Positions 29,076 through 32,643 of a stretch of DNA of 32,643 nt are shown in pieces (position 1 is the stretch's first letter; the number at the start of each line of letters is the position of its first letter). Source of the stretch: Phycisphaerales bacterium (GTDB lineage Bacteria; Planctomycetota; Phycisphaerae; WQYP01); assembly GCA_013044165.1 (NCBI GenBank), contig JABEVB010000185.1, positions 1 through 32,643 on the forward strand. Direction: 5' to 3'. Position numbers and translations under genes: made by a program. Below the pieces are notes generated by a model. The model saw only the letters and a program-made list of their open reading frames with translations, was not told the origin of the DNA and did not search any database.

Positions 29076-29133
29076 GAAGCAAGCCTCCGGGTAACGGTTG
29101 CGCACGGTCATGAACCTTGGCACGCAACCTCAT

Positions 29134-29149
29134 GGTTAAATACTATACC
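29134..29149. promoter_or_regulatory. Operator-like motif GGTTAAATACTATACC upstream of DUF4159-like copy 1
   Basis: Identical 16-mer occurs at 31849-31864 upstream of copy 2. Confidence 0.5.
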
Positions 29150-29454
29150 ATACCTGTACTCATTCACGCCAGACACGCGGCGATGAATCATTCAAAATAG
29201 CCTCGCAGGCGGCGGACCTGCCACCACCACGACGCACCGACGATTGAACCGCGATTTTTAACCGCGAAGGCGCCAAGACCCGAAGAATAATAAATCTAAG
29301 TATCTCAATATAATAATCTGAGTAATCTGTAAATTGCCCGGTCGTCTCGGCGATCTCGGAGACCTCTGTGGCAGATATTCCGTCGGTCACCGCTGCTCCC
29401 CCGCAAATCAGGCAACATGCCTGCGGTACGATAGTGATCCCTGCATCCCAAGAG

Positions 29455-31740
29455 CTACTTTTTGCTCCGGCCGGCATATTCCACAATATTGCGAGCCAGC
29501 GCCACCGACGACTTGGGCGAATAACCCAGGATGCCCCACGTATGGGTTCCCAGCAGGCCGCTGGTGATGTCGGTTTGCGAAAATATCACACCCCAACGCT
29601 GGCCAATCTTAATGCCCAAAAGCCCCGGCTTGCTCTTGATGCCTTTGGTGCTCACATAAAACCTGCGGTACGTCACCTTGCTTGCATCCACCCCGCCCGG
29701 AACTTTGCCGGTGATAAACGGCGCATCGTCCGGAATCTTTTGCAATGGCTCATGCGGAAACACCTTCATCATCAATTGTGTAAACCCATTGGTGAACTCG
29801 GGATTTCCACCGGTTCCATCCGCAAACAACACCCCCCCTTTTTGAATGTACTGCCGCAGTGCCGCGACATCTTTATCCGACAGGTGCAAACCGTTGGTGC
29901 CGGTCAGGTGCAGAATGGGCACATCGGCCGCGCCGGCTGCAGCGATATCCACGGTCGAGAGTACCGCGTCTGTCCTGGCATCCGCGGCCAGCAGCTTGGT
30001 CAGCCGCGGCCAAGCCCCTGGTTCCGGGTTCCAGTTACCCGGATATTGCACCAGCCCGATCTTGATCGTGCGCAGAGGTGGCTTGGCGGCCACGGGCACG
30101 GCCGTCGAATGCAGCCGGTCGGCGAGCGAGCCTTTGCCGGTGGCATAAAGATAGAGATTAAGTGGAAACTCCCAGAAACTCCTCTGGCTCAATGCCTGCC
30201 GCTCCCAGATCGCCCCCAGGTCGCCCGGGCATACCAGCCAGAGATAGCGCGCACCATTGGAAAGCGCCAGCACATTCATATGCATGTGGTACCAGGGCTG
30301 CATATTAAAGAGATCGCTTTTATTCGTAAGCCTTTGAAACTCATACTGCCTGTTGACAACCTCACGGCCATATTTAATCATGGCCCGCTGAAATGCGATG
30401 GAACTGTTGTTGCACGAGCACAAGACCAGGCCCCCGGCATCCACATAGCGCCGCAGCTTGGCGATTTGCTCTGGGGTGAATTTTGGATCTTTCTCTCCGC
30501 TGATATACAGAATAGGGCTGTTGCGCCAGTCGCTCAGGGGGGCGTTGATACTGGCCACCTGCCAGTTAAACGGCGCTTCGGTCTGCTTGCTGATCCATTC
30601 AACCATGTTGGCAACATCCCGCTGGCGGGCGTTCCAGTCGCCAAAATAGGGCTTGTTGTACTGCAGCTTGTTGCAAAGCACCGGGTTAAGCCCGCGATCC
30701 AATATCAGCAGAGCATACGCGGTACCCAGGCAATAGTGCTGGTTGGGCCAGAAAGTCGTGACCCAACTGCCGTTGACCTGCTGGTGTTGAAGCAGCGTGC
30801 GGGCAAAATCCTCGTACCAGTTATGCCCGCCAAACCGCTGCAGGCCCGAAGCCAGACCCACACGCTCATAACCGTACATGGTGTAAAGCTCCGACAACTG
30901 CGGCTGAAAGTGCCCATCAATCCATTTCAAGCCACGCTCCAAGCTTGGGTCACGAAAGCGGCGGTCGGTATTTCGCCGGGCCAGGTACTCGTCGCATATC
31001 AGCAGGCTCGCAACGCCTGCCGGGGTCATCTGCATCGGTTCGAGACGATTGGGCATATACCACCAGGTGCCATCGGGCTGCTGCGTTCTGCGCCAGTAGT
31101 TGGCGGCGATCATCCAGTATTTTTCCGGTATACTCAGGCCATAATCCGCAGCGGTCCACATGCCCAAAATGCCGTACTGCGTGTTGGAATTATCGCCCCC
31201 AAACGGATCGTTGCGCCCGGCCTGCACGGGCGCTGGGTATATGATGTAGCCATAGCTGCCATCCCGGTTGAGGCTGCGCAATAAGTAATCGGCATCCCAC
31301 TCGAGCACCTTGCGATACTGCGTTTTTTTGGGCAGCAGGCCCATCACCGCCGCCTGAAAGCTCGCCACGTACGTGGTGCTGTCGCGATGGTCCACCAAAA
31401 AGCGGATGGCGCTTTTCATGGGGTCTTTAAAGATATTCAATTCCTTCAGATGCAGGCTCTGCTGAACATCCAGCAGCGCTTCGGTCGCCAGGGCCGATTC
31501 ACCCAGATATTGTGGGATCAGCTTGCCATTGAGGCCCCCATTAACCACCCCCTGTTCCCAGTGTGTGCCGGGCTTATTTCTGGAAAGCAGATAGTGCACA
31601 CCCTTACGAATGGCCTGCACCACCAATTTACTGGAAACCTGTGGCCCAACGGGTTCGGCCGCTTGGCCTGTTGCGATGGGGCACAGCAGCGTAAGAATGA
31701 TGGCCGCAGTCTACCTGTAGTTATGATGGCGAGTATTCAA
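29455..31740 (-). pseudogene. DUF4159-like copy 2; ORF intact from 31626 down, but the signal peptide has an in-frame TAG
   Basis: RBS GGAGG (31749-31753) and TTG (31740) are conserved with copy 1; then ttg aat act cgc cat cat aac tac agg TAG (31711-31713) in frame with the 723-aa ORF 29455-31626. Called a candidate pseudogene because the body remains open. Confidence 0.65.
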
Positions 31741-31784
31741 GAAGCAAACCTCCGGGTCATCGTTACGCTCGGTCAAGAGCCTTA

Positions 31785-31831
31785 GAGCCTGTTTGAAAAG
31801 GCTGGTGCGGTCGGAGTTTTCAAACAGGCTC
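31785..31831. mobile_element. 47-bp MITE-like element with perfect 15-bp terminal inverted repeats and TTA target duplication
   Basis: TTA-GAGCCTGTTTGAAAA-ggctggtgcggtcggag-TTTTCAAACAGGCTC-TTA. Absent from the otherwise alignable leader of copy 1 (gaacCTTGgcacgcaacctcatggttaaatac). Confidence 0.82.
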
Positions 31832-31848
31832 TTAGCACGCAATCTCAT

Positions 31849-31864
31849 GGTTAAATACTATACC
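31849..31864. promoter_or_regulatory. Operator-like motif GGTTAAATACTATACC upstream of DUF4159-like copy 2
   Basis: Identical to the motif at 29134-29149. Confidence 0.5.
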
Positions 31865-31913: not shown

Positions 31914-32055
31914 GGGCCTGTGACAGTTTCTGCCAAAGGCCTAAGGATGGGAAAATATGAACGAACCAGGCCAGTTGTGGTGCAGGCTTCCAGCCTGCTG
32001 CCAGTTTTAGCAGGCAAGATGCCCGCACGGCAACCGCAGAAACTGTCACAGGCCC
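31914..32055. repeat. 142-bp element bounded by perfect 20-bp inverted repeats, with an internal hairpin repeat
   Basis: GGGCCTGTGACAGTTTCTGC (31914-31933) and GCAGAAACTGTCACAGGCCC (32036-32055); internal GCAGGCT-TCC-AGCCTGC at 31982-31998. Confidence 0.75.
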
Positions 32056-32468: not shown

Positions 32469-32484
32469 GATTAAATACTTAACC
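32469..32484. promoter_or_regulatory. Operator-like motif GATTAAATACTTAACC just downstream of the -10 box
   Basis: 13/16 identical by eye to the DUF4159-like gene motif; near-palindromic. Confidence 0.45.
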
Positions 32485-32550: not shown

Positions 32551-32643
32551 GAGCCTGTTTGAAAAGGCTGGTGCGGTCGGATTGCGGCCCAAGGTGGCCG
32601 GATGCAAGGCCGCAGCTCCGAGGCATATTCGAAAATATGGCGA
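32551..32643 (+). mobile_element. Left end of a longer element of the same family as the 47-bp MITE-like insertion (truncated by window end)
   Basis: TTA then GAGCCTGTTTGAAAAGGCTGGTGCGGTCGGA, identical over 31 bp to 31785-31815, then diverging into palindrome-rich sequence. Confidence 0.65.

Follow-up and report, generated by a model that had tools for sequence, protein, structure and literature searches.

Type II MITEs of prokaryotes, such as QMITE1 and QMITE2 of Coxiella burnetii and Chunjie of Geobacter, are short, non-autonomous elements with TIRs, a target duplication and a stem-loop. They occur in many copies and in size variants, and resemble an IS at their ends only (PMC10969869). QMITE1 copies as short as 39 bp have been reported (PMC10969869), so a length of 47 bp, as in the element described here, is not exceptional by itself. 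Correia elements (NEMIS) of Neisseria are also short MITEs that lie near genes and form hairpins in leader transcripts (PMC10969869). MITEPsy1 of Pseudomonas syringae, a small MITE described as 100 bp long with 18-bp inverted repeats, has been tentatively tied to IS5-family transposases (PMC3189936). Within that family, a 2-bp target duplication is listed for nearly all Paracoccus members of the IS427 group (PMC3281130).

The window analyzed here, the whole 32,643-nucleotide stretch of DNA from a Phycisphaerales bacterium, carries a 47-bp inverted-repeat element in the leader of a DUF4159 gene (Table 1). The element reads GAGCCTGTTTGAAAA-GGCTGGTGCGGTCGGAG-TTTTCAAACAGGCTC, with perfect 15-bp TIRs (GAGCCTGTTTGAAAA/TTTTCAAACAGGCTC) around a 17-bp interior and TTA on either side, and the window sequence confirms an earlier note that had described it in these terms. 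When the two paralogous leaders are aligned with gaps allowed, copy 1 shows a single 50-bp gap, which corresponds to the 47-bp element plus 3 bp and falls exactly at the element. The empty site in copy 1 is CTTGG, and the filled site in copy 2 is C-TTA-element-TTA-G. The claim that the paralogous leader preserves the empty site thus holds for the position and length of the gap but not to the base, as the copy-1 triplet is TTG, one base apart from the duplicated TTA. With its TIRs, its target duplication, its multiple dispersed relatives bearing the same ends, no transposase and a size well under ~500 bp (162-163 bp in the parent form), the 47-bp element is a real, well-explained object of an ordinary kind.

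Table 1. Features of the element, its target site and the adjoining leader, in window coordinates.
Feature	Position	Strand	Remark
47-bp MITE deletion derivative (15-bp TIR, 17 bp, 15-bp TIR)	31785-31831	.	162-bp MITE minus 115 bp
Target duplication TTA (3 bp), left copy	31782-31784	.	
Target duplication TTA (3 bp), right copy	31832-31834	.	
CGGA at deletion junction, a 4-bp repeat present once per parent arm (28-31, 143-146)	31812-31815	.	Junction slides over the 4-bp run
Copy-1 paralogous leader without the element; empty site CTTGG; GGTTAAATACTATACC at 29134-29149	29105-29160	.	
GGTTAAATACTATACC, same in both paralogous leaders, beyond the element as seen from the gene	31849-31864	.	
DUF4159 gene, copy 2, downstream of the element	29455-31740 (upper end approximate)	-	ORF from 31626 open
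First 93 bp of a full-length 162-bp copy, TTA before it	32551-32643	+	Contig ends inside the copy

The 15-bp end recurs throughout the genome, a 3.58-Mb draft in 255 contigs. The exact 15-mer occurs 61 times, while the reversed control pattern, searched without mismatches, does not occur. Allowing up to one mismatch gives 63 usable ends, or about 31 elements. Behind these ends lie two types of interior arm, one at 30 ends and the other at 33, as expected if every element has one of each. The triplet before the end is TNA in all 63 cases (31 TTA, 28 TAA, 2 TCA and 2 TGA); it extends to CTNA in 51, usually in the context CTNAG, with no conservation further out. Both flanks are readable in five elements, and the left and right triplets are identical in each: TAA, TAA, TTA and TAA in C75, C130, C169 and C210, respectively, and TTA in the 47-mer. 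The target rule of this MITE is therefore a 3-bp TNA duplication within a CTNAG preference. Because the control pattern is absent and every flank is TNA, the recurrence of the ends is not due to chance. The further copies and TTA-type duplications on which the earlier note had made its reading depend are both present in number.

The parent MITE, found whole in only six places, is an imperfect palindrome of 162-163 bp with a different arm type at each end, and folds as RNA into one long hairpin of about -85 to -106 kcal/mol. Contig ends of the draft interrupt most of the 162-bp copies, and about 50 such ends fall within the MITE, as expected if 162 bp exceeds the overlap between contigs, which is an exact 99 bp in the one neighboring pair where it was seen. 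The 47-bp copy is shorter than this overlap. MITE copies thereby help account for the fragmentation of the draft. One such broken copy lies in the window itself, where it begins 720 bp past the 47-mer with the third identical 15-mer of the window.

In the 162-bp element, the 47-mer corresponds exactly to positions 1-27/31 joined to positions 143/147-162; the intervening 115 bp are missing. Homology at this junction is 4 bp; had 115 bp been removed from the other points tested on this arm, it would be 0-1 bp. What had been described as a minimal MITE-like insertion is thus a real element, but one that derives from the 162-bp MITE by a single 115-bp deletion and does not represent an independent minimal family.

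It is very probable that a 162-bp MITE was inserted here by an IS5-family transposase acting in trans, and that this copy then lost 115 bp between its CGGA repeats. The non-autonomous, hairpin-forming MITE would have entered a CTTAG site in the DUF4159 leader and duplicated TTA. The 115 bp of palindromic stem between the two CGGA repeats near the hairpin base would have been lost afterwards, most likely through slipped replication across the hairpin, leaving both 15-bp ends intact with 17 bp between them. The CGGA repeats stand close to the foot of the stem, one on each side, which is a classical setting for slipped replication. The TTG of the copy-1 empty site, where TTA would be expected, speaks against this account, as does the loss of a presumed catalytic residue from the native transposase described below. 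When 28 genomes of the order were searched for two ends separated by 6-36 bp, just the 47-mer and one 50-bp palindrome whose right triplet does not match came up, and within its own genome the 47-mer is the only short copy. Short forms are thus rare, and deletion in place after insertion, as opposed to before it, is the simplest history.

A different order of events, in which the deletion took place at another site and the element then jumped into the leader already 47 bp long, is unlikely. Its ends and target duplication are complete and would make it a valid substrate in principle. Yet there is no second 47-bp copy among its roughly 31 relatives in the genome, even though any element below the 99-bp overlap should be easier to assemble than the 162-bp form, and ends only 17 bp apart would presumably be hard to pair in a transposition complex. 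That two 15-bp ends at this spacing still form a working transposon, movable by an IS5-family transposase, is very unlikely; were it so, the minimal length of such elements would be very low. The remnant has in all likelihood ceased to move.

Two further readings dispense with a genuine deletion derivative. Since template skipping is provoked by long hairpins, and the 47-mer has its junction at a 4-bp repeat, a polymerase or the assembler might have jumped over the stem of a real 162-bp copy. Such an artefact is highly improbable here, as the contig continues through unique flanks and the insert is shorter than the exact overlap; full-length copies broke the assembly nearly everywhere, and a real 162-bp copy would be expected to do so at this site as well. 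The element might instead be a functional hairpin (a terminator, an attenuator or a REP-like protein target) with no transposon ancestry, given that it forms a stable 15-bp stem in the leader and that GGAGG follows about 30 nt downstream. This is scarcely credible in view of the exact target duplication, the absence of the element from the paralogous leader and the same ends at 61 genomic places. Scans of the leader also found neither a terminator-like T run nor an Rfam match, and the leader folds only mildly better than shuffled sequences (z -1.78).

Insertion of a 162-bp MITE followed by deletion in place calls for a source of transposase, and a candidate is present in the same genome. The start of C193 encodes the end of an IS5-family transposase (NF033580, 117.5 bits against a cut-off of 110; DDE_Tnp_1), and the outer end of this IS, GAGCCTGTTTGAGAA, matches the MITE TIR at 14 of 15 bp, with a flank of the same triplet class. 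The front half of a transposase (DUF4096) lies at the end of C71, which shares the exact 99-bp overlap with C193; from this overlap, we infer that the two are parts of one IS. The joined element is 850 bp long, like the IS of the relatives G017 and G003, and has the ends GTGCCTTTTTGAGAAG/GAGCCTGTTTGAGAAG with TAA on both sides. In G003 the left end of the IS is identical to the MITE TIR over all 15 bp, and G006 has the same left end. An IS with near-identical ends has thus been found, split over two contigs, and the assignment to IS5, earlier only suggested, is well supported by its transposase, its right end, its flanks and the identical end in a relative. IS1031-type elements use TNA, and the 3-bp TNA duplication is closer to those.

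The sequence shared by MITE and IS stops after the terminal 15-16 bp; the next 28 bases give 5-12 matches, about the chance level. The two thus have their ends in common but no recognizable interior. Similarity limited to the ends makes the MITE a type II element, which the IS may plausibly mobilize without being its ancestor; the MITE need not descend from the C71/C193 IS by internal deletion. A transposase of the IS5 type probably moved the MITE copies. The native transposase reads VVASQSVK where relatives have VIDSQSVK or IIDSQSIK, with Ala in place of the Asp (C71, L135 438-854) that we take to be the first catalytic residue. Because this residue is lost, the native copy, the only one found, is probably inactive, barring a sequencing error or a copy missing from the draft. 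The likely source transposase may have lost its activity once the genome had filled with copies.

Other genera of the family also have diverged 162-bp relatives with the same ends, mostly at 70-77% identity and in the largest numbers in G003 and G019, and their spread across genera indicates that the MITE is old in the family. The same-genus genome G001 contains no MITE with the exact ends. At the site corresponding to the C75 copy, its flanks match and the MITE is absent, the intergenic DNA being too diverged to place the site at base level. The 50-bp palindrome, located in G025 (C212:11168-11217; GAGCCTGTTTGGAAA...TTTCCAAACAGGCTC), is flanked by TTA on just one side, and G025 contains no copy of a parent; for these reasons we did not score it as a second short case, though it is possibly another collapsed element. 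In G003 (C147) and G024 (C175), two exact 15-bp ends at a distance of 347 bp enclose a third, related one, apparently a 162-bp element beside or within another.

Within the DUF4159 leader, the 47-mer lies between GGAGG and GGTTAAATACTATACC, and would give a 15-bp hairpin in the transcript according to its predicted fold. An effect on DUF4159 expression is possible but unsupported. The two GGTTAAATACTATACC sites of Table 1 are identical, and a third at 32469-32484 has 3 mismatches; the window contains 4 matches where 0.1 are expected. This sequence is a possible promoter or operator, although the promoter scan found no sigma-70 match there and gave no match elsewhere in the leader. The TTG start aligned between the paralogs lies behind GGAGG (31700-31740), and codon 10 after it is an in-frame TAG in copy 2 but a Trp codon in copy 1. 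The TAG falls inside the presumed signal peptide, so the copy-2 paralog may have lost it. A second repeat occupies 31914-32055 (142 bp, with 20-bp perfect inverted ends GGGCCTGTGACAGTTTCTGC). With at most one mismatch allowed, its 17-bp end recurs at 23 genomic places, usually alone; interiors and flanks vary from place to place, and there is no constant triplet.

Taken together, the parent, the exact deletion derivative, the CTNAG rule, the nearby uninserted paralogous site and the likely source transposase illustrate in compact form how a MITE arises and decays, and the 47-bp remnant leaves knowledge of MITEs as such unchanged. Correia elements, which target TA, differ from the present MITE in both ends and target. 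MITEPsy1 shares the small size and the tentative link to IS5, and differs by description in its length, inverted repeats and host. In general build the present MITE resembles the type II MITEs of Coxiella and Geobacter, from which it differs in its ends and host, and in having a short form that derives from one parent by a single exact deletion. The likely helper IS, in turn, resembles the IS427/IS1031-type elements of the IS5 family, including the Paracoccus IS427 group, in its 850 bp, its DUF4096 and DDE_Tnp_1 parts and its TIRs of about 15 bp (PMC3281130). A frame change between the DUF4096 and DDE parts agrees with the two overlapping frames and the length of about 830-865 bp that mark the IS427 group. 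The MITE has these ends in common with the likely helper but carries no transposase, and the target duplication here is 3 bp of the form TNA, as opposed to 2 bp in nearly all Paracoccus IS427-group members (PMC3281130).
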